A stretch of 48,871 bases of DNA from a virus: IMG/VR virus record IMGVR_UViG_3300042462_000377, positions 1 through 48,871 of that record; one strand, given 5' to 3'. The notes under the pieces were generated by a model. The model saw only the letters and a program-made list of their open reading frames with translations, was not told where the DNA came from and did not search any database. This document shows, one piece after another, positions 1-48,871 of the stretch. Position 1 is the stretch's first letter, and each line of letters opens with the position of its first letter. The position numbers were made by a program, and so were the translations under genes.

Positions 1-127
1 CGGCAACGGGAATTTGCGCGAGGCGGCGCTGGCGCTGGATTGAGTCAGGAATTGCAACAACAGGCCCGTAACGTCCGTGGCGCTTGGGACTTGGCGACTG
101 CTGGCGGCAGAGAGAATCTGCAACTGA
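1..127. repeat. Terminal direct repeat marking a closed circle
   Basis: These 127 bases are identical to 48745-48871. The tape measure reading frame passes through the join without interruption. 127 is a common largest k-mer in assemblers, so this is best read as an assembly overlap of a circular or circularly permuted genome rather than a biological terminal repeat. The unique genome length is 48,744 bp. Confidence 0.95.
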
Positions 128-4371: not shown

Positions 4372-4895
4372 TGATCGACGTAACTCATTACATCGAGTTT
4401 CTTGACGCTACTGGCGCTCCGTTGCCGCTGCCGTTACGCTATCAACCTTTCTTTATTGGAGAGAATAGAACGTTTAACGGACTAACTTACAATTTTAGTC
4501 CTTACAGTATTGCCGGCGACCTGTCAACTGATGGCAACGAAAGCGGAGACTATGAGTTAATTGCGCCAGCAAACATTATCTCAACCGCAAAACTATGGCA
4601 AGCGTCTGAGGATTTATTGCTTGCCAAGGTTTCGACCGTGCTACTTGTTGGCACGCCACCATCTAGCGTAAACGGATACCCGACATGGAACGAGTTGAAC
4701 TTTCTAAGCTCAACCATTTGCGCTTGCGATACCTTTAGCTATGTCGATGCCGTGCCAGGAGAAGAAGAAGCATTTTCTGTTGTTACCTTAAAACTTGGCA
4801 ATCCGCTTAATTTTGTCACAGGGACCGCGCCAACCCGTAGACTCACGGCGGCCCAAGTCGGGCCACTGCCATCTAGCGGAGGGATTTTGTTTTGA
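4371..4895 (+). CDS. Minor tail protein, tail-tip assembly (lambda L-like position)
   Basis: 174 aa, starting on the A of the tape measure stop (TGATG), so translation is probably coupled. Siphoviruses place the tail-tip proteins M/L, K and J directly after the tape measure, and this is the first gene of that set. The sequence is beta-rich with the N-terminal pattern HYIEFLDATGAPLPLPLRY, which resembles DUF1833-type minor tail proteins. There is no cysteine-rich iron-sulphur motif like that of lambda gpL. Function is inferred from order and a weak family resemblance. Confidence 0.6.
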   Translation: MIDVTHYIEFLDATGAPLPLPLRYQPFFIGENRTFNGLTYNFSPYSIAGDLSTDGNESGDYELIAPANIISTAKLWQASEDLLLAKVSTVLLVGTPPSSVNGYPTWNELNFLSSTICACDTFSYVDAVPGEEEAFSVVTLKLGNPLNFVTGTAPTRRLTAAQVGPLPSSGGILF

Positions 4896-5275
4896 CATTT
4901 TGGCGCAAATGGTCTGGCTTGCCCTGGCAACTCGGCGCAGACCCACGGGACGGTCGGGGGGCCTGCTGCTTCAGGACCGCCCAGGCGGTACGTCAGGAGC
5001 TGGGAATGTCCTGGCCGGCAGATCGTATGGGGAGCTGGTACAGGGCGGCTGAGCGGGGGCGCTGGAGGGAGCTGGACGAGGACTGGGGCGAGCTGACCGA
5101 ACCCATTAAGAAGCCTGAGGCCGGCGCCTTGATCCGCTTCGACCGGGGAGACGGCTCTTTCGGCGTCGGCGTGCTGCCCGATGCCAACACATTTATCACC
5201 GTCAGGCATTATGGCCGCTTAGTTGCCGGTCCCGTCAGTGCTTGCGGTTCACTTAAACTCTATCGCTTGCTGTGA
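4892..5275 (+). CDS. NlpC/P60-like tail assembly protein (lambda K-like)
   Basis: 127 aa with a TTG start inside the previous stop (TTGA overlap). NlpC/P60 proteins are cysteine peptidases that cut peptidoglycan cross-links; lambda gpK carries such a domain and acts in tail-tip assembly. Here the nucleophile region would be RGACCFRTAQ (residues about 21-30) and the histidine TVRHYGRLV (about residue 108). The first motif reads GACC instead of the usual DCxG/DCWG form, so activity is uncertain. It lies between an L-like and a J-like gene, exactly where gpK is expected. Its GC content is clearly higher than that of its neighbours. Confidence 0.65.
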   Translation: MTFWRKWSGLPWQLGADPRDGRGACCFRTAQAVRQELGMSWPADRMGSWYRAAERGRWRELDEDWGELTEPIKKPEAGALIRFDRGDGSFGVGVLPDANTFITVRHYGRLVAGPVSACGSLKLYRLL

Positions 5276-8200
5276 TTAAGCTACTTCCTTACGAAAAACG
5301 TCTTGCTCAAATTCTGGGCGTATCTGAAGATGCGTACCGGGAATGGAAGGCGATTACGTTAAGGGAGTCAGTAGAACGGCCTGCTGCCGCTGAAGGGCCA
5401 GTATGCGGGCCATTGGTTCCTGTACTTGTTAATTTAGCGATTTCAGTTGGCGTATCGCTACTGTCTTCGCTGCTGTTTCCAGCACGGCAACAGTCGAGAA
5501 TCACTACCACCAGAAAAAGCGGTACTCCAACAACTAACAACCAGCGATCTTCGCCGCGCTTCGGGTTCGACTCGATGCAGGAACCCGCCAGGATCGGGCA
5601 GTTCGTTCCTGTAGTAATCGCCAAGCGCGAGAACAACCTTGGCGGCGTTCGTGTCGCAATGCCGTTGCTTTGGTCGCAGATGCTGGCCAACAACGGATCA
5701 GTAATGTTTCGTGGCGTTTTTCTTGGCGGTACTGCCGGAATGCCGGCAGATGCTTGGGACCAAAGGGGCTGGGCGTTTGGGAATAACACGCTTGGCGCTT
5801 ACGCTTACACCGGCACAGCGTTAAGTCAGGGAGCGCGATACTCCATATACTTTGCGCCTAATGGTGGGCGGATCAACTCAGCTCAACTCATTGCCGGCAG
5901 GAGCGCAAACAGAGATCCTGGCAACTCGCAAAATAGTGGCGGCCAAGATGTATTTGCGCTTGAAACCACAAGCGGTCAATACAAGACAGCATTTTGCATG
6001 AGCGAAACGCCATCAACCAGTACATCGTTTGGCCTGTACGGTTGGTGCCCTAACGCAATGATGCACAGGCAACCAGTAACAATACAGCCAACCATCGTAG
6101 CAAGGATTGACGATGACGACAAGGTACGCACTGATGACGATGCAGCGGCCTTGGTAGAGATATGGAAAGGTAAATTCTATTGGTCAATGCGAAGCGGGTT
6201 GCGCAAGCGCAAGGCCAGTGGTTCTTCGACGTGGACAACTCCTGCTACCGGCGACTACCAAATCGTTACGCAAAGCGTTGCTGTTGGCGATTCGCTGCTC
6301 TACGCGATCAACGGCACTACTGATGCTAAGACAAAGATCCGATTTAATACTACCAATTCACGGGTCATAGATAATGATGCAGAATCCGAAGCGGAAATGG
6401 GCGGCGTTGCGGCTGCTGTTGCCGGCGTGCAAAACTCGGCAGATTCTGCCTTGATCCCCAATGAACTTTACAGGATAGGCAGTTGCTGGGCAATATTCGA
6501 AGAAAGAATATCGGAAAGCCCTAGCGAGTCGATCTTTATTAGCGACTCAGAGCAAGAGCCTGTTGGTGATGGCAACAGCATGGAATATGTCTTTACGGTA
6601 GTACAGGCCGGAAGTGTGCAATTCATTGGTCCCAAGTTTCTGTTTCCAGATGAATCCGGCACTACGATTCTGCCACCAGAGTACAACCCAAGCAGCGACC
6701 TTGCCAACCTGCAAAGCGGTACTCAAGGCCGCTACAAGTTATGCTCTCAAGCTGCGCAAGTCTTTCGCATGGCAATAGCATCATTTAGCGCAGTGAGAGA
6801 GTTTCGGGTTTGCGAAATTATCATTAAGTCAAGAGTTGGTATAACCGTAAATAGTATAACAGGTTTCAGGTCATGCCCAAAAGTGCAAACCATCAACAGT
6901 CGCGCAGGCCAAAACCAAGTCGGCAAAACGGCGAATGGCGTTATATCGGTTTCTCGCTACGATAGCGGCGGAGATTCTATCACTACAAAGACACGTCGCT
7001 ATAGCTGCTTCAACTTGCAATACAGCCTGGACCGTGGCGCAACATGGACGCAGTTTCCTGACGTTTTTGCAGTCGCCGGCATCAGCGGTGAAGAGATCCA
7101 CAACTACTTAAGGATCGTTCTTCCATCTAACAGGCGATGGACGATTAGAGCTGTGCCGGTTTCTAGTTGGGAAGTGCGCCAAAGCGCTATTACCCAAATC
7201 CTGGTGCTCGATACCAACAGCGGCGAAGAGGTGGAATCCACTGCTGCCGGCGTCACCGTAATATCAACTGGCTACATCATAAACCCAACAAGTAGCAAGA
7301 ACCGCAAAATCTCACAGCTTGAGCCTAAGTTTGACATTGGCCTTGGCTGGGCCGACCCTGAGTACGAATCCATGATTGGCGGTTACGCTAGGTTCGATGA
7401 AGCATTCCCGTACGAAAATATCCAATCAAGCGTAAGCAATAGTCCAGAGCATCAGATCACGCAGATCAACTATTATGGCGATCTTGACATGACGCCATCT
7501 TACGAGTCTTTGGCGCCTGTAGGCGTGAACATCTCAGCATCGCTTGAGTTTAATAGTCTTTCAGGTTTTAGCGGCTTTTGCAATAACGGCCATCAAATGC
7601 CTAGGCTATTAAATAACGACACAGAAGGATCAAGCCATTTATGGCCAGACTGGTTGCGCGAAGTAATGACGAACCCCGAACTGGGCGCCTTCCCTCGCAC
7701 GCAACTGGCGCAAATTGACAGGCCAAGTTTTCAGGAGGCAGCGCAATGGTGCCAAGACCGGGGATATTTTTACGATAAGGTCGAAGATGAACCGCTAAAC
7801 ATTCTGAGCTGGGCTTCAGAGATTGCATTAGCGCATCTGCTCAAGCTGGTTCGACTTGGCGGCGTTTACTATCTTAAAAAAGCGATTGAGTTTGATGCGC
7901 CACTCAAGGTTGAAGCGCAGTTTAATAACGGCAACATCGAAGAGGGATCTTTTAGGCTAAACACTATTGACTATGCAACAAGGCAGCCTTTTATAGTACA
8001 AGTCAAATGGAGAGAAGAATCAACAGGAGCAGAGTCGCCGCTGTTTGCCCGTGAGCGCGTGGCGATGGTAAGGGAAGCAAGTACCAGCGTAAACGCTCCA
8101 GTCAAAGAGCTTGACTTATCGGAGTGGTGTACTAACTACAGGCAAGCTATTGATGCTGCCTGCTACTACATTCGATTCGTAACAATACACGATCATCAAA

Positions 8201-26371: not shown

Positions 26372-27064
26372 ATGTTAACTAGGAATTTCGATCAACTTTC
26401 AAAAGAAGTCAAGCATCATGTCGCGTGTGACGCAGTCCAGCAAGACTGCTACTGGGATGGTTCCCGTGGTTGCTTTATTGGCTGTCTGTCGCATTCTAGT
26501 GACACAGCCAAGGTTCAAGATGAATATGGCCTACCAATTATGTTGCAGCGAATTGCTGAAAGCATCTTTGAGTCACTGCCACTAAAAGAGGCGCAAGCCT
26601 TTTTTGCAGCGTTCCCGACTGCCATTAAGTGCGACAACAAAGACCTGAGCAAGGTTGGATGGCAGTTTTTAGCATCGGAGCTGCGGTCATTACCGCCCCA
26701 GCCAGCCGAGATCACCGCAGTCATTGAACCAGTCGTCGTTGGCATGGATCTTCTGGCGGCGGGGCAAGAATGGCCCGCCGCCGCCGCCGCCGCCGCCTAC
26801 GACGCCGCCCGCGCCGCCGCCGCCCGCGCCGCCTACGCCGCCGCCCGCGCCGCCGCCGCCGCCTACGACGCCGCCCGCGCCGCCTACGCCGCCGACGCCG
26901 CCGCCTACGCCGCCTACGCCGCCGACGCCGCCGCCTACGCCGCCGACGCCTACGCCGCCGACGCCGCCGACGCCTACGCCGCCGACGCCCGCTTGCGTCA
27001 GCGTGATTTGCTTTTGAAACTTATTACAGAAGCGCCAATCGCCCCTTCGCCAATCGCCCCATGA
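26372..27064 (+). CDS. Alanine-repeat protein
   Basis: 230 aa. The N-terminal domain (residues 1-130) has four cysteines (VACDAVQQDC, GCFIGC) and SSDTAKVQDEYGLPIMLQRI. Residues about 135-208 are an Ala-rich helix of repeated AAYAADA, AARAAYAA and AYDAARAA. The repeat uses almost only the codons GCC, TAC, GAC and CGC, unlike the rest of the window. Similar Ala/Tyr/Asp/Arg helices occur in many phage proteins of unknown function. The cysteine-containing N-terminus may be the functional domain, with the helix as spacer. Stop overlaps the next start (ATGA). Confidence 0.75.
   Translation: MLTRNFDQLSKEVKHHVACDAVQQDCYWDGSRGCFIGCLSHSSDTAKVQDEYGLPIMLQRIAESIFESLPLKEAQAFFAAFPTAIKCDNKDLSKVGWQFLASELRSLPPQPAEITAVIEPVVVGMDLLAAGQEWPAAAAAAAYDAARAAAARAAYAAARAAAAAYDAARAAYAADAAAYAAYAADAAAYAADAYAADAADAYAADARLRQRDLLLKLITEAPIAPSPIAP
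26776..26996 (+). repeat. GCC-rich low-complexity coding repeat
   Basis: About 220 bases built from GCC, TAC, GAC and CGC triplets. It would be prone to slippage, so exact length may vary between relatives or be mis-assembled. It keeps the frame of 26372-27064. Confidence 0.85.
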
Positions 27065-28264: not shown

Positions 28265-28597
28265 ATGGATTATACTGAACTAATTAAAGCGATTAAGGCC
28301 GGCGAATGCCCAAAGTTACTGCCAAATTCATCGCTTATGCTTAGCTACAAGTCGGAACCTGTTGAAGTCCGGGAAGGCTCAATGACTACAGGTGACGGTA
28401 GTTTTGAGTTATACCGCTTTGGAGTCGGCAGTTACTTTGTCATGTCCAGTGACTTTTTTGTTTGTACTGCACTTGAGGGGGTAAAGTCGGGAGAATTTCT
28501 TATTAAGTTTATTAAAGTTTGCTCAACGCTTAAGCTCATTCTGGAGCTTGTGAGGCGCTTAGAGCACTCGATGAAGCGAGAGCAGCAGGCATGGTAA
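28265..28597 (+). CDS. Hypothetical protein
   Basis: 110 aa, abutting the previous stop. A helix (YTELIKAIKAGECPKLLPN) is followed by a beta-rich region and a C-terminal helix LILELVRRLEHSMKREQQ. Overlaps the HNH-like gene by seven bases. Unknown. Confidence 0.6.
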   Translation: MDYTELIKAIKAGECPKLLPNSSLMLSYKSEPVEVREGSMTTGDGSFELYRFGVGSYFVMSSDFFVCTALEGVKSGEFLIKFIKVCSTLKLILELVRRLEHSMKREQQAW

Positions 28598-29091
28598 ACA
28601 AGATGACAGCGCTACCACCAATCGCGCTACTTCAGTTTCTGTTTCACTACAATCAAGTGGATGGGACTATAACCTACCTCCAGCAGCGTGGTCCCAAAAA
28701 GCCTGGCGACCTGGCCGACAGCACACGCAATGGCCTGCCAATTGTCTACATTCACGGCAAAGAGTACAAGGCCGCTGACGTGGCCTGGGCGCTTCATCGT
28801 GGCAAGTGGCCATACGGCTTCTATGTTGTTTGCCGCGACAAGAATCCATGCAACCTGGCCTGGGATAACCTACTGGCAACACATGTCAAGCCGATCTACC
28901 GCAATCCCCTGGGCCGGCGAGCAAAGCGGCCTGGCTGGTTCAAGAAAGACCTGAAGCGCAATCCAGTGACCGGCGAATGGACGGCCCGGTATGACGGCGC
29001 CCTGTTGCCAGGCACCTTCCTGACGCAGGCAGAGGCGGCAGCGGCAAGACGGCTGGCGGCGAAGGAGGAGGATTCATGTTCCCATTGCTAG
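28591..29091 (+). CDS. Degenerate HNH/AP2-type protein
   Basis: 166 aa. It follows the phage HNH layout: FLFHYNQVDGTITYLQQRG, YIHGKEYKAADVAWALHRGK, WPYGFYVVCRDKNPCNLAWD and NLLATHVKPIY. In active relatives the pieces read aHRvaWaL.hG.wP and iDHinG...DN..NLR. Here the first His is Asp (AADVAW) and the DH pair is VC (VVCRDKNP), so the metal site looks destroyed. The C-terminal part (NPVTGEWTARYDG, LTQAEAAAARRLAAKE) resembles an AP2 DNA-binding domain. The gene is more GC-rich than its neighbours, which suggests an inserted homing-type element that lost cutting activity. Confidence 0.7.
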   Translation: MVNKMTALPPIALLQFLFHYNQVDGTITYLQQRGPKKPGDLADSTRNGLPIVYIHGKEYKAADVAWALHRGKWPYGFYVVCRDKNPCNLAWDNLLATHVKPIYRNPLGRRAKRPGWFKKDLKRNPVTGEWTARYDGALLPGTFLTQAEAAAARRLAAKEEDSCSHC

Positions 29092-29405: not shown

Positions 29406-29681
29406 ATGGCTAACCTAATTGCGCATGACATTAAGATCAGAGACTTAAGACTTAAGCGCTTAACATTCAAAAGGGTTAGGATCAATCAGGTATTCTACTA
29501 CAGCTATCGCTGGTATCAGAAAATATCGAAATACATGGCGATAACAGCAGACACTATCGAGAATGACAGGATACGGTTTAAGGAAGCTGCCATGGTACGG
29601 GTCATGGATGAAGGCGCAGCATCTGCAAGGACCGCTGGTGGTATGTCATTTGAAGAGTTCCTTCAGAATGCCGCTTTGTGA
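29406..29681 (+). CDS. Basic hypothetical protein
   Basis: 91 aa, starting directly after the previous stop. The N-terminal half is strongly basic (IKIRDLRLKRLTFKRVRINQ), compatible with nucleic acid binding; the second half is helical. Its stop codon begins promoter module 2. Confidence 0.55.
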   Translation: MANLIAHDIKIRDLRLKRLTFKRVRINQVFYYSYRWYQKISKYMAITADTIENDRIRFKEAAMVRVMDEGAASARTAGGMSFEEFLQNAAL

Positions 29682-29739
29682 CAAACTGTTAAGCATCCAA
29701 CACTGACCTTGGCATGTTGGCCCATTTTCATGCTATGAT
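29680..29739 (+). promoter_or_regulatory. Accessory promoter module 2
   Basis: GACAAACTGTTAAGC overlaps the preceding stop. An inverted repeat CCAAC...GTTGG and the extended -10 TGCTATGAT (hexamer 29734-29739) follow. GTTAAG to -10 is 46 bases. TTGGCA lies 19 bases upstream of the hexamer as a weak -35. The leader TTACTTTGTCCAAAC is shared with module 4. Confidence 0.7.
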
Positions 29740-29764
29740 TACTTTGTCCAAACAAAACAAGTCG

Positions 29765-30178
29765 ATGACGCTTTATCTGCTCAACACCACCGTTGTCCCT
29801 TGCGGGAGTGACGGCATCTGGGATGTTAAGACACTTCCTCTTGCGTCGGCCAAAAGTCTTTTCGCTCGCACATCCCCGGCAACCGTTTACACGTCTGCCG
29901 TAGGACATGAATCAACAGCTTGTATCATGGCCGAACTGCTAGGGGTTCAAGTCCCCGTGAACAGAATACAGGTGGCGCCTGTTTTGGGTGATAAGCTGCT
30001 TTGCTTTAAGCTAAAGCAAAGAGCGCCAGAAGGGGTGATCCTGTCAGCGCCAGAGATTGAAGCGTTGGGTTATGAATGGGTTTTAATGACCTACCATGGC
30101 AGCATCGGTGCTGCACTGGACGCCAAGCTGTTATCCCAGGACAACTTTGTGAATGCAGTTTACAATCGGGTATATTGA
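29765..30178 (+). CDS. acrIII-1: DUF1874 family ring nuclease, predicted type III anti-CRISPR (AcrIII-1)
   Basis: 137 aa from the ATG 25 bases after the -10. The family pattern is clear: LYLLNTTVVPCGSDGIWDV, YTSAVGHESTA, ELLGVQVPVNRIQV, FKLKQRAPEG and EIEALGYEWVLM. AcrIII-1 (SIRV1 gp29) degrades the cyclic tetra-adenylate signal of type III CRISPR and needs His47, Arg85 and Glu88; here H48, R86 and E89 occupy the matching motifs (GHxST, QRxxEG). The family core is about 110 aa; this protein has about 30 further residues (HGSIGAALDAKLLSQDN), origin unknown. It has its own promoter and is followed by a small gene one base downstream. Family assignment is strong; anti-CRISPR activity in this host is inferred. 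Confidence 0.88.
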   Translation: MTLYLLNTTVVPCGSDGIWDVKTLPLASAKSLFARTSPATVYTSAVGHESTACIMAELLGVQVPVNRIQVAPVLGDKLLCFKLKQRAPEGVILSAPEIEALGYEWVLMTYHGSIGAALDAKLLSQDNFVNAVYNRVY

Positions 30179-30179
30179 T

Positions 30180-30431
30180 ATGTTTACTATTTTTGTGCAA
30201 CAGAATGACCAGTGGGTCGAGTTTCTACCGCTGGCTAGAGAACTTGGGCACGTTAGCCAGAAAGAGGCTGACTGCATTAAGGATTACAGCCTGGAAGAGG
30301 TAGCCAAAGTAATTAGCTATTTTGGGAATGAAGTTCAGATATTACCACCTTGCAGCTTTTGGAAGGTGGTCGGGCCAGCCGGCCATACGCTGCCAGGTTT
30401 TATCCATTCGACCTATGAAGCGGCAGCCTAG
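30180..30431 (+). CDS. Hypothetical protein co-transcribed with AcrIII-1
   Basis: 83 aa. The ATG is one base after the AcrIII-1 stop, so they are almost certainly translated together. Sequence features: FTIFVQQNDQWVEFLPLAR, YSLEEVAKVISYFGNE, SFWKVVGPAGHTLPGF. No family recognised. The tight pairing with an anti-CRISPR gene makes it a candidate counter-defence partner. Confidence 0.6.
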   Translation: MFTIFVQQNDQWVEFLPLARELGHVSQKEADCIKDYSLEEVAKVISYFGNEVQILPPCSFWKVVGPAGHTLPGFIHSTYEAAA

Positions 30432-30439
30432 CCGCCACC

Positions 30440-30499
30440 TTACAAACTGTTAAGCATCCAACACTGACCTTGGCACGTTGGCGCTTAGATGCTGTATAG
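30440..30499 (+). promoter_or_regulatory. Accessory promoter module 3
   Basis: TTACAAACTGTTAAGC, then an inverted repeat CCAAC...GTTGG nearly identical to module 2, then the -10 TATAGT (30494-30499). GTTAAG to -10 is 45 bases. Leader TTACATTGTTCAAAC. Confidence 0.7.
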
Positions 30500-30527
30500 T
30501 TACATTGTTCAAACAACCCAAGCCGCC

Positions 30528-31214
30528 ATGACAAGCGCCATTCTTCCAGTCGCAATGTTGCACGCAGCAGCACAGTTTACCTCGCCAGATCCTGTTAAGC
30601 AAGTGCTAACTGGCATCCTAGTCAGGCCGGCAGATGATGGGGGAGTTATCATTAGCTCCAGCGATGGACACAGAGCCTTTCGTGTTACATGCCCAAATCC
30701 TAAATGGGTATGCCAGCAAGCATTACTGCTATCAGGTAAAGCGTTCAAGAAGCGCATACCATACGCCAGAATCGCTGAGTTTGAGACGCCATTTAGCAAC
30801 GCTGCTATCCATGGCGGCAAAAAGCTGACAGAATATATGCAATCATTGCCGGCAATGTGGCAATGTGAATACGTAGCTGCGGCAGATACCTATACAAGCG
30901 TAAATCCCGCTACGCTTTATCCAGACTCGGATCGGATATGGCCCAGTCAATATGGAAGAGAGACTGATACGCCTATTGGGTTTAATGCTGCTTACCTGGC
31001 TGATTTCTTAACAATAGTTAAGCTGTACTCACATACTGATCTTGTGGTTAGCGAGCGCAACAGATACAATACGCCAATGATCTTTAGCGCTAAAGTAGAT
31101 ATGCCAGAACTATCAGTGACCATGGAATACTTGTTGATGCCAGTAGAGGATCAAGCTAATAGGGCGCCATATGGCAGCCGTGGCATGGTGGTGACAGCGG
31201 AGAGCGAGGAGTAA
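30528..31214 (+). CDS. Two-domain sliding-clamp-like protein (DnaN domains 2-3)
   Basis: 228 aa from the ATG 28 bases after the -10; an upstream ATG overlaps the promoter. It resembles bacterial beta clamps lacking domain 1: VLTGILVRPADDGGVIISS and SDGHRAFRV match the domain 2 pattern (vLnGvl...l...TDGHRLA). GFNAAYLADFLTIVKL, TPMIFSAK and VTMEYLLMPV match the end of domain 3 (YL...l......P......yl.MP). Bacterial clamps are about 370 aa dimers of three-domain chains; a 228-aa two-domain chain would need to form a trimer, as T4 gp45 does, or act as a decoy. No phage polymerase is present. Confidence 0.68.
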   Translation: MTSAILPVAMLHAAAQFTSPDPVKQVLTGILVRPADDGGVIISSSDGHRAFRVTCPNPKWVCQQALLLSGKAFKKRIPYARIAEFETPFSNAAIHGGKKLTEYMQSLPAMWQCEYVAAADTYTSVNPATLYPDSDRIWPSQYGRETDTPIGFNAAYLADFLTIVKLYSHTDLVVSERNRYNTPMIFSAKVDMPELSVTMEYLLMPVEDQANRAPYGSRGMVVTAESEE

Positions 31215-31219
31215 CACCT

Positions 31220-31279
31220 TACAAACTGTTAAGCACTTTCAGCCGGACCTAGCAAGTCCGGCTTTTTTCATGCTATGAT
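31220..31279 (+). promoter_or_regulatory. Accessory promoter module 4
   Basis: TTACAAACTGTTAAGC, an embedded terminator (31242-31269), then extended -10 TGCTATGAT (hexamer 31274-31279). GTTAAG to -10 is 45 bases. Confidence 0.72.
31242..31269 (+). terminator. Intrinsic terminator inside module 4
   Basis: Perfect 8-bp stem AGCCGGAC / GTCCGGCT followed by six T. It ends the clamp-like transcript four bases before the -10 of the next gene. Confidence 0.88.
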
Positions 31280-31320
31280 TACTTTGTCCAAACGACACCG
31301 GCAACAAGCCGAACCCCTAC

Positions 31321-31767
31321 ATGGAACCAACCGCTTCGATCATTGATCTGGAATCAGTCGCACCAAAAGACCGCAGAATTGCCTTTGCCCGCCATGCTGC
31401 GAAGCGTATTCAGGCACGAGAGCTTGGCACGGTAGTCGAACGAATTGTCGCAGATTCTGAGCTGCGGCCAGCCGATGGCGAATCAGATGAAGATTTTATG
31501 AAGCGTCTTTACACTGACGGCGTTTTGAAGTGCTACTCTCCACTGAAAGATACGCCATTCACGCTATTTTATCTGTACAATAAGCCGTTAATCGGCTTTT
31601 TGCCGCCAGATATTGGCGGCAAAAAGATAGCCGACGACACAGGCGCAATGACTATAACCATTAACGTGGTTCAGACTGAGCTGATGCCACAATGGGGCGA
31701 TTCGGATGGCGTGGAAAAGCTCATTATTTCGTTCATGCTTTTTAAGTTGCTAGAAGGCAAAGTCTGA
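31321..31767 (+). CDS. Hypothetical accessory protein
   Basis: 148 aa. Helical N-terminus with basic segments (RRIAFARHAAKRIQARELGT), then ESDEDFMKRLYTDGVLKCYS, and a beta-rich end (AMTITINVVQTELMPQWGD). It has its own terminator-promoter module on each side. The leader has no Shine-Dalgarno sequence. No family recognised. Confidence 0.6.
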   Translation: MEPTASIIDLESVAPKDRRIAFARHAAKRIQARELGTVVERIVADSELRPADGESDEDFMKRLYTDGVLKCYSPLKDTPFTLFYLYNKPLIGFLPPDIGGKKIADDTGAMTITINVVQTELMPQWGDSDGVEKLIISFMLFKLLEGKV

Positions 31768-31773
31768 GCCACC

Positions 31774-31834
31774 TTACAAACTGTTAAGCGTTAAGAGGCG
31801 AGCCTAGCAAGCTCGCTTTTTTATGTGCTATGCT
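31774..31834 (+). promoter_or_regulatory. Accessory promoter module 5
   Basis: TTACAAACTGTTAAGC, embedded terminator (31798-31822), then TGCTATGCT (hexamer 31829-31834). GTTAAG to -10 is 46 bases. The leader TTCAAACGAAAC follows. Confidence 0.72.
31798..31822 (+). terminator. Intrinsic terminator inside module 5
   Basis: Stem GCGAGC / GCTCGC with a seven-base loop and six T. It has the loop CTAGCAA, also found in the module 4 terminator, although the stems differ. Confidence 0.85.
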
Positions 31835-31862
31835 TAATGTGTTCAAACGAAACAGGCCCACC

Positions 31863-32078
31863 ATGCAAACCCCATCGGCATACGATCAAACTGGCTATCT
31901 TGCCGGCAACCAGCATAGTTATGGAGCGTTGCACAGGCAATCTATCGAGTTAGTGGAGCAAATGGCGAGAGTTAGTGGAGCCAAGGATGAGCTGATGGCG
32001 ATGGCTAAAATTTGTTCGAGCCTTGCGCGTAAGGCTGAAGATGCGCGGCTAAAAGATTTAGGTTGCTTTGAAGAGTGA
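31863..32078 (+). CDS. Small helical accessory protein
   Basis: 71 aa from the ATG 28 bases after the -10; an upstream ATG lies in the -10 itself. YDQTGYLAGNQHSYGALHRQ precedes a helix RQSIELVEQMARVSGAKDEL. Unknown function. Confidence 0.55.
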   Translation: MQTPSAYDQTGYLAGNQHSYGALHRQSIELVEQMARVSGAKDELMAMAKICSSLARKAEDARLKDLGCFEE

Positions 32079-32129
32079 CGCTTTAACCTCTAACCCACCA
32101 TTCTGCCGGCAAACAAGCCGGATCATCCA

Positions 32130-32357
32130 ATGACACTTTATGAAGAGCTGGTCGCCGCTGGCTGTTTGATCGACCATCACAAATCGACTTTGTACGTTAG
32201 GTGCAGTGAAAAAGCTGAAACTATTATCCTCTATCACGTTTTATTGCCTGACAGCGTATTGCAGATGCCTAAACAGTTCCGGTCAGATATTGACAAAAAG
32301 TTATGGTATGACATTCCGTTTGGTTATGATCCATTCTGGAGTAAGCCGGCAAAGTAA
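32130..32357 (+). CDS. Hypothetical accessory protein
   Basis: 75 aa. It starts MTLYEELVAAGCLIDHHKST and ends in an aromatic segment (KLWYDIPFGYDPFWSKPAK). The leader CGGCAAACAAGCCGGATC can form a small hairpin. No promoter module of the array type; probably read through from 31.83 kb. Confidence 0.55.
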   Translation: MTLYEELVAAGCLIDHHKSTLYVRCSEKAETIILYHVLLPDSVLQMPKQFRSDIDKKLWYDIPFGYDPFWSKPAK

Positions 32358-32392
32358 ACAGTCTTTTCAATTCCACCATCCCCAACTCCCCA

Positions 32393-32647
32393 ATGAACCT
32401 TAACAAAGAAAACGCCGCGCTATTTCAGTCAAGCCTTGAAAAGGCTTACGAGCATTTGTTCGCAAACAATGCGGAATACAGCTACTCAGCAGCCGTAACA
32501 ACTCCCGCCAAGCTAGCAGAAAAAATGACCATCGGACTCGCAAGAAATGAAGCCAACAAAGATGGGGACGGCATTAAAATGACGTGCAAAGCTCTTAAAA
32601 TACCTTACACTTACAAGGGTATTTTGGCTTACTTAAATCATGGATAA
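32393..32647 (+). CDS. Hypothetical accessory protein
   Basis: 84 aa. EKAYEHLFANNAEYSYSAAV and ARNEANKDGDGIKMTCKALK, ending in a short helix. Last gene before the 520-base non-coding region; a terminator follows at 32673. Unknown. Confidence 0.6.
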   Translation: MNLNKENAALFQSSLEKAYEHLFANNAEYSYSAAVTTPAKLAEKMTIGLARNEANKDGDGIKMTCKALKIPYTYKGILAYLNHG

Positions 32648-32672
32648 ATAACCGGCAAGGTAAATCATGGGG

Positions 32673-32698
32673 GCTGGGGCTTTCGGGTCCCAGCTTTC
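32673..32698 (+). terminator. Probable intrinsic terminator
   Basis: Stem GCTGGG / CCCAGC with a ten-base loop, followed by TTTCTC. The T run is short and interrupted, so efficiency is uncertain. Confidence 0.6.
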
Positions 32699-32771
32699 TC
32701 ATTGGATTCTCAACCTGGACAGATCAGGCTGGCTTATGGTCATTTTGGGGGCCTGCATCGAGTAGTGATCT

Positions 32772-32810
32772 ATTCAAAAGCCTTGCGGCGCAACGATTTA
32801 TAAGGAAAAA
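32772..32810 (+). repeat. 39-bp direct repeat, copy 1
   Basis: Matches 32847-32885 at 37 of 39 bases. The core CCTTGCGGCGCAA occurs a third time at 33751-33763, right after the terminase-like gene. Each of the two full copies is followed shortly by GGAGATAAA. Confidence 0.85.
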
Positions 32811-32846
32811 GGTGCCGAGGAGATAAACCTGCATTTTTAGTAACAC

Positions 32847-32885
32847 ATTCAAAAGCCTTGCGGCGCAACGATCTGTAAGGAAAAA
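32847..32885 (+). repeat. 39-bp direct repeat, copy 2
   Basis: Second copy, starting 75 bases after the first. The core TTGCGGCGCAA has 4-bp inverted ends (TTGC/GCAA), as expected for a protein-binding site. Confidence 0.85.
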
Positions 32886-32942
32886 CGAAAAGGAGATAAA
32901 TTGCCTAATAGAAAAGGTGGGGGAAACGTGTATCAGGGTGAT

Positions 32943-32972
32943 ACAGTCTCACTATGAGTCTCATGAGACTGT
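32943..32972. repeat. Nested inverted repeats of GTCTCA / TGAGAC
   Basis: AGTCTCATGAGACT (32957-32970) is a perfect 14-bp palindrome. ACAGTCTCA (32943-32951) and TGAGACTGT (32964-32972) form a second, 9-bp inverted repeat around it. The same hexamer is iterated at the 3' end of the terminase-like gene. Confidence 0.8.
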
Positions 32973-33170
32973 AGAAAAAGTGAAAAAAAGTATTTTCTTC
33001 TATTCTCTCTATCTCTGCCAGCTCCCATCAGGCTTTTGGACCTGTTACTGAAAATGCAGGCGATTATCCGCCATAAGTCAAGCCTATAAGACCATTTTCT
33101 TCCTGCCGGCAAGATAAAAGCATGGAAGTATGTTGCGTTGTAGTATCCTGTAATCACGAATAAGAGCAAC

Positions 33171-33746
33171 ATGGATTCATCGCTTTCTCGCATTAACCCA
33201 ACTCCCATTCACTGCCGGCCAGATAGCGAAAGATTATTGCGCACGCATAACGCCTGGCAGGCATCTTGGGACCAAAGCAGCGAGAACGAAGAAGCGCCAG
33301 ATTTAGAAGCATTAACAAGAGAGGCGTTTGGCTATTATGCTGCTGGATTGTTGCCGGTTCAAGTTAGGTGGAAGCTAGGCGAGCTGCATTCACACCTCTC
33401 GAACGCCACCCTCACCCGCATTCAGCGCCGCGCCGAGCGTGCCCTGCTGGCCGCTGAGAGCGCCCCGCCAGAGCTGCGCCGCGCCATGGTGGCCGCAGCC
33501 CGCCAGACGGCCATTCAAGGGGCCATTTCGGACCATGCCTGGGGCGCAGCTCTGGCGGGCTTAGCGCGTGCTGGCGAGATCGCTAGGGAGATGCGGGAGA
33601 GCGCTGGCCTGAGCGAGGAGGATCTGGTGTTGACCGTCTCGGTCGAGCAGCCTGTACTCCCTGCCGGTGAGTCTCAGCCAGTCTCAGATGAGACAGCGGC
33701 CAATCTCAACGATGAGACGGTTGAGATTGAGACTGAGACTTGTTGA
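33171..33746 (+). CDS. Probable terminase small subunit
   Basis: 191 aa. Residues about 45-70 (LTREAFGYYAAGLLPVQVRW) look like a helix-turn-helix entry. A long helical region follows (LTRIQRRAERALLAAESAPP; AAARQTAIQGAISDHAWGAA), and then a Glu/Thr-rich acidic tail. This is the layout of small terminases: DNA-binding N-terminus, helical oligomerisation core, acidic end. Codons in the middle are much more GC-rich than at either end. The 3' end and the downstream region carry a cluster of GTCTCA/TGAGAC sites. The large terminase is 5 kb away on the other strand, so the call rests on layout and the site cluster. Confidence 0.5.
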   Translation: MDSSLSRINPTPIHCRPDSERLLRTHNAWQASWDQSSENEEAPDLEALTREAFGYYAAGLLPVQVRWKLGELHSHLSNATLTRIQRRAERALLAAESAPPELRRAMVAAARQTAIQGAISDHAWGAALAGLARAGEIAREMRESAGLSEEDLVLTVSVEQPVLPAGESQPVSDETAANLNDETVEIETETC

Positions 33747-33780
33747 GAACCCTTGCGGCGCAATGAATCTCATCTGAGAC
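33671..33780. repeat. Cluster of seven GTCTCA/TGAGAC hexamers, candidate packaging site
   Basis: Exact hexamers begin at 33671, 33681, 33689, 33713, 33728, 33734 and 33775, with further near-matches. By chance about one would be expected every 2 kb counting both orientations. In P22 and SPP1-type phages the pac site lies in or beside the small terminase gene. The cluster also spells an acidic tail, so coding repeat is the alternative explanation. Confidence 0.5.
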
Positions 33781-33795
33781 AGGCATTCATGCAAC

Positions 33796-33842
33796 TAAAT
33801 GTTAAGCATTCATAGGCGCTGGCCCTGTTAGGGTGCTACTGT
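33796..33842 (+). promoter_or_regulatory. Accessory promoter module 6
   Basis: TAAATGTTAAGC, small inverted repeat CCCT/AGGG, then extended -10 TGCTACTGT (hexamer 33837-33842). GTTAAG to -10 is 36 bases. The leader ATGGGAGCCATTCA is shared with module 7. Confidence 0.6.
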
Positions 33843-33870
33843 ATGGGAGCCATTCACAAAAAAGGCATTC

Positions 33871-34104
33871 ATGGGCGCATCCTTTCCTAACATTGACATA
33901 AGTTGTCGGACAGGCGAATATGTAGGGTATTCAGCCGGCAACGATGGAATATGGCTTATCAAAAGAGCTAACCCTATAGGCTCAAAGTATAGATGGCTTG
34001 TGCAAAAAAGAAATAATAAGGATTGTTTCTACGCAAGGACCCTAGGAGAGATAAGCGAAAAATTGTCAAGCCTTAGCGATGCTGCCACTGTTGCAAACTG
34101 TTAA
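33871..34104 (+). CDS. Small accessory protein
   Basis: 77 aa. GYSAGNDGIWLIKRANPIGS, then a basic segment YRWLVQKRNNKD, and a C-terminal helix. The start is 28 bases after the -10, in the leader word GGCATTC-ATG. Its stop codon lies inside the next promoter word. Unknown. Confidence 0.55.
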   Translation: MGASFPNIDISCRTGEYVGYSAGNDGIWLIKRANPIGSKYRWLVQKRNNKDCFYARTLGEISEKLSSLSDAATVANC

Positions 34105-34141
34105 GCGTCCAGCCACTGGCGTGTCATTCATGCGCTATTGT
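34091..34141 (+). promoter_or_regulatory. Accessory promoter module 7
   Basis: TTGCAAACTGTTAAGC overlaps the stop of the previous gene. Inverted repeat CCAG/CTGG, -10 TATTGT (34136-34141), 36 bases after GTTAAG. Leader ATGGGAGCCATTCATTC matches module 6. Confidence 0.65.
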
Positions 34142-34174
34142 ATGGGAGCCATTCATTCATTCGAGAGGCATTCA

Positions 34175-34390
34175 ATGATTAGCCCTATTTACTCTCCCGA
34201 TTTAATGACAGAGTTAGTTCCTGTCAATCTTTCAATTTGGGAGCTTAATGTTATCTACGATCTTTTAAGAAAAGAGGCTAACAAAGTGCAGAAAGAAGGT
34301 AATTATTGCGCCGGGTCCTACAACGATAGCGTAGTACGGTTAGATAAAAAGATTGTCGCCATTAGACAAAGTGTTCGCCAGCACTCTTAA
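34175..34390 (+). CDS. Small accessory protein
   Basis: 71 aa from the ATG after GGCATTCA; an upstream start would cross the promoter. YSPDLMTELVPVNLSIWELN is followed by a basic helix VIYDLLRKEANKVQKEGNY and the end RLDKKIVAIRQSVRQ. Unknown. Confidence 0.55.
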   Translation: MISPIYSPDLMTELVPVNLSIWELNVIYDLLRKEANKVQKEGNYCAGSYNDSVVRLDKKIVAIRQSVRQHS

Positions 34391-34392
34391 CC

Positions 34393-34443
34393 TTGCTAAT
34401 TGTTAAGCGTCCAGCCACACCACGCTGACAACCATGCTACTAT
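34393..34443 (+). promoter_or_regulatory. Accessory promoter module 8
   Basis: TTGCTAATTGTTAAGC, short inverted repeat AGCGT/ACGCT, extended -10 TGCTACTAT (hexamer 34438-34443). GTTAAG to -10 is 36 bases. Confidence 0.62.
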
Positions 34444-34470
34444 TAACAAGCAAACACGCACCGCCCCACC

Positions 34471-34845
34471 ATGGCCACGACAACAGCAACAAAAACCGCC
34501 CCATTCACCGCCGCAGAATGGGCAAGCCTTAAAAGACTAGCTAAAATTATTCACAAATGGAATGAAGATGAATGTAATGGCGCTATTCAATGGCACGGTG
34601 ACAATGAAGAAACTCCTAAGCGTTATTTTCAAGATCGCTACGGCTGCTTTACTATCCCTGGCCCTACGATTCAGGATAAAGAGAAGCAAAGCGTAGAGTC
34701 TGCTCGCAAGATTGCCGCCAGGCATGGTTTGTCTATCTACCACCAAACCGACCCTAGGGGTATCGCGCTATATGTCTACAATCCTGCGCTCAACGAAGGT
34801 AGAATCGATGAACTTTATTCTAGCATCGGCAAACCTGTCTGCTAA
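34471..34845 (+). CDS. Conserved phage protein of unknown function
   Basis: 124 aa. The pattern LAKIIHKWNEDECNGAIQW near residue 25 and SIYHQTDPRGIALYVYNP near residue 95 resembles a family of small unknown proteins seen in many tailed phages (LHRW.E.ECNG.IQR ... YhQtDPRG..LYv). No catalytic role is known to me. The leader lacks a Shine-Dalgarno sequence. Confidence 0.7.
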   Translation: MATTTATKTAPFTAAEWASLKRLAKIIHKWNEDECNGAIQWHGDNEETPKRYFQDRYGCFTIPGPTIQDKEKQSVESARKIAARHGLSIYHQTDPRGIALYVYNPALNEGRIDELYSSIGKPVC

Positions 34846-34873
34846 ATTCATTCATTCATTCATTCATTCATTC
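34846..34873 (+). repeat. Tetranucleotide repeat (ATTC)7 in a 5' leader
   Basis: Seven perfect ATTC units start after the previous stop and end five bases before the next ATG. Shorter ATTCATTC runs occur in the leaders of 33871 and 34175. Slippage could change leader length and expression. Confidence 0.9.
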
Positions 34874-34878
34874 AAACC

Positions 34879-35103
34879 ATGCAAACTCAAAGTGTTTCCC
34901 CTGCTAATTTCCGGGTTAATCTTGAGGCTAACAAGGATAAGCGTAAGGCAGAGATTTATGATGCGGCCATGTTGCTGCTAAGGGCGGATCGTGATTTGGC
35001 ATTGATAACCATTAGTCTTGCCACTATCACCGACTTGTCTGAATTGTGCCGCAAAATAGAATTAGGTGAGAAAATATCAGGATCGCCTTTGCTTGACTTC
35101 TAG
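34879..35103 (+). CDS. Small helical accessory protein
   Basis: 74 aa. FRVNLEANKDKRKAEIYDAA, then LLRADRDLALITISLATITD. Unlike most of its neighbours it has no separate promoter module; the gap upstream is filled by the ATTC repeat. Probably co-transcribed with 34471-34845. Confidence 0.55.
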   Translation: MQTQSVSPANFRVNLEANKDKRKAEIYDAAMLLLRADRDLALITISLATITDLSELCRKIELGEKISGSPLLDF

Positions 35104-35105
35104 CC

Positions 35106-35161
35106 TTACAAACTGTTAAGCGTCCACCGTCCTGCCATGCTAAGGCATGGCAGGATATGCA
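35106..35161 (+). promoter_or_regulatory. Accessory promoter module 9
   Basis: TTACAAACTGTTAAGC, a perfect 10-bp hairpin (CCTGCCATGC / GCATGGCAGG, loop TAAG, 35131-35154), then -10 TATGCA (35156-35161), 41 bases after GTTAAG. The whole block recurs as module 10. Confidence 0.65.
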
Positions 35162-35188
35162 AGTACCAAAGCAAACAAGGTCATCTCA

Positions 35189-35548
35189 ATGAGTCTCCCA
35201 AGCATCAAAACGTTAAATTCTGCTTTTCCCGGCCTGGGGAAGGACCTTAGGCGCGCTTTAGAATTGAGCAGAAAAGAATTAAAAGAGCATCCAGCGTCCA
35301 AACACTTGTCTGCTTTATTTCACCCGGCAAAAACGTCTCAAATCAGACTAACGGTTTTGGATGCAATCGCTGAGACTTGTGGCGTAGAATACGTTGCGCA
35401 TAAAGATGATACTATTTTTGAAAACAAAGGTTTTGACTATCTGAACGTAGGTGATCCTTACGTTCCTACGATCATACGATTCTGCGAGACTGGTCGCTAT
35501 GTTGTCGCTTGCTATGGTGACATAGTAGAAAAGGGAAACTATATTTAA
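35189..35548 (+). CDS. Conserved phage protein of unknown function
   Basis: 119 aa from the ATG at 35189. An in-frame ATG at 35147 would add MAGYASTKANKV, which is promoter hairpin and leader sequence repeated upstream of 35647, so it is rejected. The N-terminal half is helical (FPGLGKDLRRALELSRKELK); the end, FDYLNVGDPYVPTIIRF and YVVACYGDIVE, matches a widespread small-protein pattern (YLn.GDpY..T......R..V...GD.vE) of unknown function. Confidence 0.68.
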   Translation: MSLPSIKTLNSAFPGLGKDLRRALELSRKELKEHPASKHLSALFHPAKTSQIRLTVLDAIAETCGVEYVAHKDDTIFENKGFDYLNVGDPYVPTIIRFCETGRYVVACYGDIVEKGNYI

Positions 35549-35569
35549 CCTCTGGCCACCGTGCCAACC

Positions 35570-35625
35570 TTACAAATTGTTAAGCGTCCACCGTCCTGCC
35601 ATGCTAAGACATGGTAGGATATGCA
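35570..35625 (+). promoter_or_regulatory. Accessory promoter module 10
   Basis: TTACAAATTGTTAAGC, a hairpin with compensating G-U pairs relative to module 9, then TATGCA (35620-35625), again 41 bases after GTTAAG. The leader CACCAAAGCAAACAAGGTCA is nearly identical to that of module 9. Confidence 0.65.
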
Positions 35626-37668: not shown

Positions 37669-38184
37669 ATGGGCACTCTCGCTGACTGGCAGATCCACGA
37701 ACGCTGCATGGCTGGCATGGTCACTCCGTATGATCCTGCATTGCTTAACCCAGCGTCGCTTGACCTGCGCTTGGGCAGCAACATTATGATCGAATCAGTG
37801 GAAAGCCCAGAGATGGTGCTAGTTTCAATCGCTAAATACACAGAGAAAAATCCTTATCTCATAGTGCCAGGACAGTTTTTCTTGGCTGAAACTGAAGAGT
37901 TTTTCAACATTCCCAACGACTTAGAAGGCCAATTTATCCTTAAATCTTCTCGCGCAAGAAGTGGATTACAGCATTTGATGGCCGGTTTTTGCGATCCCGG
38001 CTGGCATGGCTCGCGCTTAACGCTTGAGCTTCTAAGCGTTCGCCAACTTTGGGAGATAGGCATTTATCCAGGCATGAAAATTGGGCAGATGAAGTTTTCT
38101 ACGATGGATTCCGAACCTAGGCGCTCTTACGCCGTCACCGGCAGGTATAATAACGATGCAACCGTCACCGCATCAAAGGGTTAA
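37669..38184 (+). CDS. dcd: dCTP deaminase
   Basis: 171 aa. dCTP deaminase converts dCTP to dUTP, supplying dTTP synthesis. Signatures: LNPASLDLRLGSNIMI (nucleotide loop), PGQFFLAETEEFFNIP, FILKSSRARSGLQHLMAG (SSxAR.GL motif) and DPGWHGSRLTLELL (DPGW.G.lTLE, with the catalytic Glu retained). Length is close to the cellular enzymes (about 190 aa). The kinase-like gene follows after four bases, forming a nucleotide-pool operon. Whether it also hydrolyses dUTP cannot be told. Confidence 0.88.
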   Translation: MGTLADWQIHERCMAGMVTPYDPALLNPASLDLRLGSNIMIESVESPEMVLVSIAKYTEKNPYLIVPGQFFLAETEEFFNIPNDLEGQFILKSSRARSGLQHLMAGFCDPGWHGSRLTLELLSVRQLWEIGIYPGMKIGQMKFSTMDSEPRRSYAVTGRYNNDATVTASKG

Positions 38185-38188
38185 AGTT

Positions 38189-38740
38189 ATGAATCCTTCA
38201 CGCCGCAAGCCTAAATTGCTTATTATCGGCCATGCTCGTCACGGCAAGGATACCCTTGCTAAAAAAATCCGCGACAGAATGGACCTGGCGTTTACCTCTT
38301 CTTCAGTTTTTGTCGGACAAGAATGTATTTGGCCCACTTGGGGTCGCCAGCGCTACCATACTTTTGAGGAAATGTTTGCGGATAGAGTTAATCATCGAAA
38401 AACATGGGCAGATTTAATCTCCGCTTACAATACTCCCGACAAAACACGAACGGCTCGAACCATGCTTGAGCGTGGTTACGATATGTACGTTGGGATGCGA
38501 AAGCGGGACGAGTTTAATGCTTGCCGCAAAGCTAGATTATTTGATTGCGTTATTTGGGTTGACGCACGGCAGCGCAAGCCCCTGGAAAGCAAGGATTCGA
38601 TGGAACTGACCATCTACGACGCTGAACTTTATTGCGATAACCATGGACTCGAAAAAGACTTGGACTCGTTTGTAGGCGAACTTCAAAATCTTTTTCACTC
38701 TAAAGGCTACTGCGCTGGCCCCGATGCTGAGTGGCACTAA
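38189..38740 (+). CDS. Deoxynucleoside monophosphate kinase-like protein
   Basis: 183 aa from the ATG four bases after dcd; AAAGGG upstream fits a ribosome site. P-loop LLIIGHARHGKDTLAKKI (about residues 11-28), then a lid-like basic region (GRQRYHTFEEM, RVNHRKTW) and FDCVIWVDARQRKP. Similar phage kinases phosphorylate dNMPs. Specificity is unknown. The stop overlaps the next ATG (TAATG). Confidence 0.72.
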   Translation: MNPSRRKPKLLIIGHARHGKDTLAKKIRDRMDLAFTSSSVFVGQECIWPTWGRQRYHTFEEMFADRVNHRKTWADLISAYNTPDKTRTARTMLERGYDMYVGMRKRDEFNACRKARLFDCVIWVDARQRKPLESKDSMELTIYDAELYCDNHGLEKDLDSFVGELQNLFHSKGYCAGPDAEWH

Positions 38741-48153: not shown

Positions 48154-48871
48154 GTGGCTGATTATCGGGGGCTAATTAGTGTTGGCGTACAAGGTCTTGG
48201 CGAGATTCGCCAACTTAACGCAGCGCTTGAAAGAGCTAACCAGCTATACGGCAATCTCGAAAACGCACAGCTTATTGTAGGCGATATTGCGCAATCTGCC
48301 ACTCGCAATGTTGAAAGAGCTGCGCGTCAAGTTAATGCAGCCGGTAGGCGCAGAGCGCAAGCGGGACGCGATCTTGCTAGCGCCGGTCGCACTGTCGGGA
48401 ACGTGGCCATGCGCCGCGATCTTGATACTGGGCGCTTTGTCGCTGGCGGGCCAAACGCTACAGCACGGAGGCTGGCAAATGCCCAACTCCGACTTGCTCG
48501 GCGCGACGTAAGGGAATCCGATAGGGGCCTGACACAAGCAAGTCAAGCGCTAGAAGAAGAGGTGCGAAATCGTCGCCGGGTTAGCGCTATCCAGGGCAGG
48601 TATGCGAGAGCGTTGGAACGTACAACCCGCATCCAGGAAAGCATACAACGTAGGGGCTTGGACGCAGCTACTCAAGTAGCGAGCGCTTCGGCAGGCATCG
48701 GTAACGCAAGCCGTGGCAATTACCTTACTAATCTATACCAGGGCCGGCAACGGGAATTTGCGCGAGGCGGCGCTGGCGCTGGATTGAGTCAGGAATTGCA
48801 ACAACAGGCCCGTAACGTCCGTGGCGCTTGGGACTTGGCGACTGCTGGCGGCAGAGAGAATCTGCAACTGA
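48154..48871 (+). CDS. Tape measure protein, N-terminal part (continues at base 1)
   Basis: GTG start (MADYRGLISVGVQGLGEI) preceded by a weak GGGACGGGAA. 197 codons run to 48744 and continue in frame at base 1; the last 127 bases of the window repeat bases 1-127. The region is Arg/Ala/Gln-rich and predicted helical (LERANQLYGNLENAQLIVGD, ARRLANAQLRLARRDVRESD), typical of a tape measure N-terminus. Confidence 0.88.
   Translation, partial: MADYRGLISVGVQGLGEIRQLNAALERANQLYGNLENAQLIVGDIAQSATRNVERAARQVNAAGRRRAQAGRDLASAGRTVGNVAMRRDLDTGRFVAGGPNATARRLANAQLRLARRDVRESDRGLTQASQALEEEVRNRRRVSAIQGRYARALERTTRIQESIQRRGLDAATQVASASAGIGNASRGNYLTNLYQGRQREFARGGAGAGLSQELQQQARNVRGAWDLATAGGRENLQL
48745..48871. repeat. 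Terminal direct repeat, second copy
   Basis: Exact copy of bases 1-127. The duplicated stretch lies inside the tape measure gene and should be counted once. Confidence 0.95.

Follow-up and report, generated by a model that had tools for sequence, protein, structure and literature searches.

The window analysed here, i.e. the whole stretch of 48,871 bases, is a single virus record with portal, capsid, terminase and tape measure genes, and one of its genes very probably encodes an AcrIII-1 ring nuclease, which would cleave cyclic tetra-adenylate (cA4) and counter type III CRISPR immunity, and which lies in a two-gene mobile cassette. The family, fold and catalytic residues of the protein are directly supported by profile searches, a predicted structure and alignment, and its chemistry is proposed by analogy with characterised relatives. 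The AcrIII-1 family itself is already known; what is new in this phage is an extended sub-family, a linked neighbour gene (o83) and the movement of the cassette among sister phages.

Most work on AcrIII-1 concerns archaeal viruses, with a few bacteriophages besides, and a 2025 survey of 28,114 phage genomes recorded it in 36 (PMC12409355). Our literature search found no paper naming both AcrIII-1 and cyanophages. The window adds to this set a probably complete AcrIII-1-bearing phage from a group that is well represented in IMG/VR, and the parts worth following are the maintained C-terminal extension of the protein, the linked o83 and the visible mobility of the cassette.

Family, fold and C-terminal extension of the DUF1874 protein

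The gene and the extension of its product are located as follows:

29765-30178, + strand: predicted DUF1874/AcrIII-1 ring nuclease gene (137 aa; H48, R67, R86 and E89 at conserved family positions)
30089-30175, + strand: C-terminal extension (residues 109-137), belonging to a conserved block; two helices are predicted in it with low confidence

The frame 29765-30178 (+) is open and its 137-aa translation contains, in the claimed order, all five motifs on which the initial annotation had based its assignment (GHESTA, KQRAPEG, LYLLNTT, VPVNRIQV and EIEALGYE). Position 29765 is the likeliest start, since the AcrIII-1 homologues begin at the equivalent position and the two in-frame ATGs upstream of the gene, at 29714 and 29735, precede an extended -10-like TGCTATGAT (29731-29739) or fall within it. 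Membership of DUF1874, which that annotation had read from the letters, is clear: in a Pfam profile search PF08960 (STIV_B116-like) matched the protein with 87.7 bits (E 6.4e-25; curated cut-off 26 bits) over nearly all of the 101-column profile, and phrog_5063 matched at 1.4e-20. A phmmer search against the PDB placed AFV3-109 at the top (2.9e-20), followed by STIV B116 and the Crn2 part of Csx1-Crn2, with SIRV1 gp29 matched weakly. The PADLOC Csx16 model also matched (2.8e-15), although the Pfam DUF1874 match was much stronger; the Csx16 fold is itself similar to AFV3-109 (PMC12409355).

Alignment with SIRV1 gp29 (translated from NC_004087; 24% identity) paired H48 with H47, R67 with R66, R86 with R85 and E89 with E88, and thus agrees with the earlier placement of H48, R86 and E89 at the His47, Arg85 and Glu88 positions. 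Across 30 homologues H48, R67 and R86 do not vary, and 28 of the 30 retain E89. An AlphaFold monomer model built from 30 homologues (window and related loci) reached a mean pLDDT of 82.5 and a pTM of 0.74, with the core mostly at 85-95, weaker blocks at residues 11-20, 31-40 and 71-75, and the C-terminal extension at 51-73. A Foldseek search of the PDB with this model returned 17 matches with E <0.01, all of them DUF1874/AcrIII-1/Crn2 structures and including the cA4-bound 6SCF and 8Y7G (2J6B at 2.9e-11 and 6SCF at 4.2e-8, with probability 1.00); among predicted viral structures, STIV B116 and the THSA-485A protein I3VYU1 were matched. The modelled monomer thus has the DUF1874 fold, and the comparison with gp29 that had been proposed as a check ended in a match to the gp29:cA4 crystal (6SCF) with the active-site residues kept.

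Among the known systems, SIRV1 gp29 (PDB 6SCF, 2X4I; DUF1874/PF08960) shares the fold, the catalytic H/R/E triad and the viral context, but it comes from an archaeal rudivirus and not from a bacterial tailed phage, and the window protein is longer by a C-terminal extension of ~29 residues. AFV3-109 (PDB 2J6B, Acidianus filamentous virus 3) is the best solved relative by both sequence and fold, yet it too is from an archaeal virus and ends where the extension begins. The AcrIII-1 of Thermoanaerobacterium phage THSA-485A (I3VYU1) is a bacteriophage DUF1874 protein with a fold match, but it has 102 aa, no extension and 20% identity in the structural alignment. Synechococcus phage S-CBWM1 gp35, a cyanophage DUF1874 protein with H44/R82/E85, retains the MTY that follows the core, but differs in identity (36%), in lacking most of the extension and in its neighbouring genes. 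The gp35 gene (L005, 3001-3351) was deposited as a ‘putative DNA binding protein’, a label also carried by several betalipothrixvirus homologues. Crn2 and Csx1-Crn2 (PDB 8Y7F, 8Y7G) have the same ring nuclease domain; unlike the window gene, which sits in a phage genome, they are cellular and either belong to type III CRISPR loci or form a fusion with Csx1.

Both features that the initial annotation had pointed out, the C-terminal extension and a neighbouring gene whose ATG, at 30180, comes one base past the AcrIII-1 stop, are indeed present. The extension is part of a conserved block at residues 102-120, GYEW(V/L)(L/V)MTYHGx(I/V/L)GAA(L/I)DA, shared by the window protein, two sister contigs (protein identity 100% and 87%), IMGVR 3300035681_000001 (189,763 bases; 58-60% identity) and 3300044631_002939 (48,688 bases; 55-56% identity). 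Scans of IMG/VR with a degenerate DNA motif found exactly four other contigs (the two sisters and two unrelated phage contigs), and the 17 loci that family patterns retrieved from bacterial and archaeal genomes lack the block. Collection scans with the family used a closer 4-row alignment, a diverse 11-row one being too variable. At the sequence level, block 102-120 defines a recognisable candidate sub-family of extended AcrIII-1 proteins. Compared with the copy in sister phage G002, the extension has a dN of 0.088 and a dS of 0.33 and the core a dN of 0.092 and a dS of 0.48, values based on few sites. Since the extension is conserved in unrelated phage contigs and its dN/dS is similar to that of the core, it is a maintained part of the protein; mere read-through is ruled out by the same conservation.

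The two-gene cassette and the repeated intergenic element

The AcrIII-1 gene and o83 lie between copies of a repeated intergenic element, and the relevant features of the region are:

29681-29764, + strand: element upstream of the AcrIII-1 gene, with the anchor ACAAACTGTTAAGC (29681-29694), a weak hairpin and the extended -10-like sequence named above
30180-30431, + strand: o83 (83 aa), which starts one base past the AcrIII-1 stop and is linked to AcrIII-1 in all three carriers
30442-30527, + strand: next element copy, which bounds the two-gene unit on its downstream side and is the leader of o241 (o241 probably starts at 30528)
31221-31320, + strand: element copy that is the leader of o148 and has a terminator-like hairpin; in sister phage G001 the left half of this copy stands upstream of AcrIII-1
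31776-31862, + strand: element copy with a hairpin, leader of o82; it stands directly behind o83 in G001 and G002

Homologues of o83 were found in two sister contigs only, again directly behind AcrIII-1 (86-88% identity), and the two genes travel as a unit. Family and fold searches with o83 gave no match (the best PDB fold hit of a model built on 3 sequences, with pLDDT 74, had E 0.49). No o83 match was seen behind two distant extended AcrIII-1 homologues, and so the extended sub-family as a whole does not need o83. The two genes probably form one transcription unit within the element-bounded cassette.

An exact 12-base core of the element is present six times in the window but absent from all 50 shuffles, and the 14-base anchor, with up to 3 mismatches, occurs 16 times in the window against 5.1 expected. 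In 24 sequences of the phage group, some of which come from the same phage, 63 distinct copies were counted; 31 of these have a hairpin z < -2, and an extended -10-like match is present in 38. A generic sigma-70/terminator scan over the region gave no excess over shuffles, and the case for a promoter/terminator function of the element therefore comes from its repetition and hairpins. Element copies with the anchor, often a hairpin and the extended -10-like sequence stand between many accessory genes of this phage group (in the window at 29681-35590), with signs of gene shuffling. In L033, an unrelated phage contig with an extended homologue, a 64-nt repeat precedes the gene and has a counterpart of 97% identity 337 bases upstream.

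The unit occupies three positions in three sister phages, and all junctions fall in the repeated element. Behind o91, the gene order is (i) DUF1874-o83, o241, o148, o82 in the window, (ii) o241, DUF1874-o83, o82 in G001 and (iii) o241, o148, DUF1874-o83, o82 in G002; in three further phages (G009, G022 and G012) this interval is covered but holds no DUF1874. The blocks of the window-G001 alignment begin and end at the anchor. The junctions upstream of the AcrIII-1 gene are visible hybrids: the left half of its leader is that of o241 in the window (29681-29764), that of o148 in G001 and a third type with a strong hairpin in G002, and the right half, the gene's own, is of an identical type in all three from CATGCTATGATTACTTTGTCCAAAC on. 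Recombination inside the element would explain both the differing left halves and the common right half, and it would allow sister phages to gain, lose or relocate the AcrIII-1 unit by way of a defined intergenic element. It is doubtful that the apparent mobility is only an assembly artefact, with contigs mis-joined at the repeats, and such an artefact would leave the AcrIII-1 assignment unaffected. In favour of an artefact, repeats hold every junction, and the blocks shared by G001 and the window are ~98% identical. Against it, the element copies have only short exact stretches in common, a third arrangement is seen in G002, whose divergence from the window is roughly 4-15%, no two of the three AcrIII-1 leaders have the same left half, and the unit is missing at this interval in three further phages. 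Genes that fill the same slots in the sister phages become candidates for other counter-defence functions.

The arrangement, with its predicted promoter-like and terminator-like parts, resembles the PeSL promoter-terminator cassettes of T4-like phages (Arbiol 2010 and Comeau 2014, cited in PMC4503421). Common to both are a composite terminator/promoter-like intergenic motif and the shuffling, among close relatives, of the genes that stand between its copies. The window element differs in the sequence of its anchor, in belonging to a tailed, non-T4-like phage and in that a strong hairpin is not found in every copy.

Proposed function and its alternatives

By analogy with its relatives, the 137-aa protein would form a homodimer that binds cA4, the alarm molecule produced by activated type III CRISPR Cas10, and would cut it without metal to linear di-adenylates, with H48 as the general acid and R86 and E89 beside it; this would keep Csx1/Csm6-type effectors off and allow the phage to replicate. 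Cleavage of cA4 is the expected activity because the catalytic residues are kept. SIRV1 gp29 cleaves cA4 at 5.4 per min, ~60-fold faster than the host Crn1, and its H47A variant is inactive but retains binding (PMC7213978); the Crn2 mutant H495A is likewise dead (PMC7293037), and the THSA-485A protein relieves cA4-mediated immunity in vivo (PMC7371418). Type III components (Cas10, CARF effector) were looked for among the window proteins scanned and none was found, and an anti-CRISPR use is inferred from this phage context, i.e. a single virus record with structural genes. The AcrIII-1 gene has a low dN/dS against a sister copy (0.09/0.45).

It is possible, though rather unlikely, that the extended proteins are a distinct phage AcrIII-1 sub-family in which the enzyme is modified in its target nucleotide, its regulation or its partner by the extension and by the o83 that travels with it, with the cassette moving between sister phages as type III hosts come and go. 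There is little likelihood that the protein mainly sequesters cA4 as a sponge, or cuts the cyclic nucleotide of another defence system, instead of being a fast cA4 nuclease: the conserved extension has an extra invariant His (H111), absent in characterised members, that could alter the pocket, and sponges encoded by phages exist (PMC12409355), but every residue known to matter for cA4 cleavage is retained, a pure sponge would be expected to lose the catalytic His, and the literature presents characterised DUF1874 proteins as cA4 enzymes (PMC7371418, PMC12409355). A captured host-type ring nuclease (Crn2) that tunes rather than opposes CRISPR is the least credible alternative, for although Crn2 and AcrIII-1 belong to the same family, Crn2 is present in type III loci (PMC7293037) and the PADLOC label Csx16 is the name of a host-associated ring nuclease, the window is a phage genome among whose scanned proteins no type III component was found, a survey counted 36 phage genomes with AcrIII-1 but seven prokaryotic ones (PMC12409355), and the closest homologues all sit on viral contigs.

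Phage genome, host and neighbouring genes

The record ends in perfect 127-nt direct terminal repeats (1-127 and 48745-48871), and it is therefore probably a complete phage genome of ~48.7 kb. A search with the portal protein found 63 related IMG/VR loci. The cyanobacterial host assumed in the initial annotation is plausible on sequence grounds, with part of the evidence pointing elsewhere: the portal is closest to cyanophage S-2L (36%) and then to marine Synechococcus and Prochlorococcus phages, and S-2L is the second best match of the capsid (34%), behind a marine virus record (40%), but the best matches of the terminase are Vibrio phages (37%). A megablast search of both window halves against plasmids found no CRISPR spacer match, and a DUF3987 protein gave no tblastn match in phages. 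Type III systems do occur in cyanobacteria, e.g. in a Microcystis strain with three III-B loci (PMC11855584). For the L033 terminase, the closest relatives are those of Cylindrospermopsis and Nodularia phages.

Several other genes deserve mention. An HNH endonuclease gene (28591-29091; PF13392, 3.4e-6) adjoins the shuffled region, and its middle part varies in the sister copies. The product of o241 (30528-31214) is perhaps a sliding-clamp relative: it matched PHROGs for a RusA-like resolvase (1.5e-13) and for a DNA polymerase processivity factor (1.3e-5), and its match to the DnaN model was weak. The gene at 26372-27064, whose other strand is also open, encodes a protein with a long low-complexity, alanine-rich part (AAYAADAAAYAADAY...) that arises from 9/12-nt repeats; a similar protein is encoded by L033 (5738-6391). 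A dCTP deaminase-like gene (PF22769, 2.3e-29) within 37669-38740 overlaps a gene whose PHROG matches are to thymidylate synthase and deoxynucleoside monophosphate kinase. On L004, a 1,897-aa ORF (3-5696) has a PIF1-like helicase at its C-terminus and, mid-protein, YIDGGDCDGDSGYW, which we take to resemble the DxDGD motif of two-barrel RNA polymerases.
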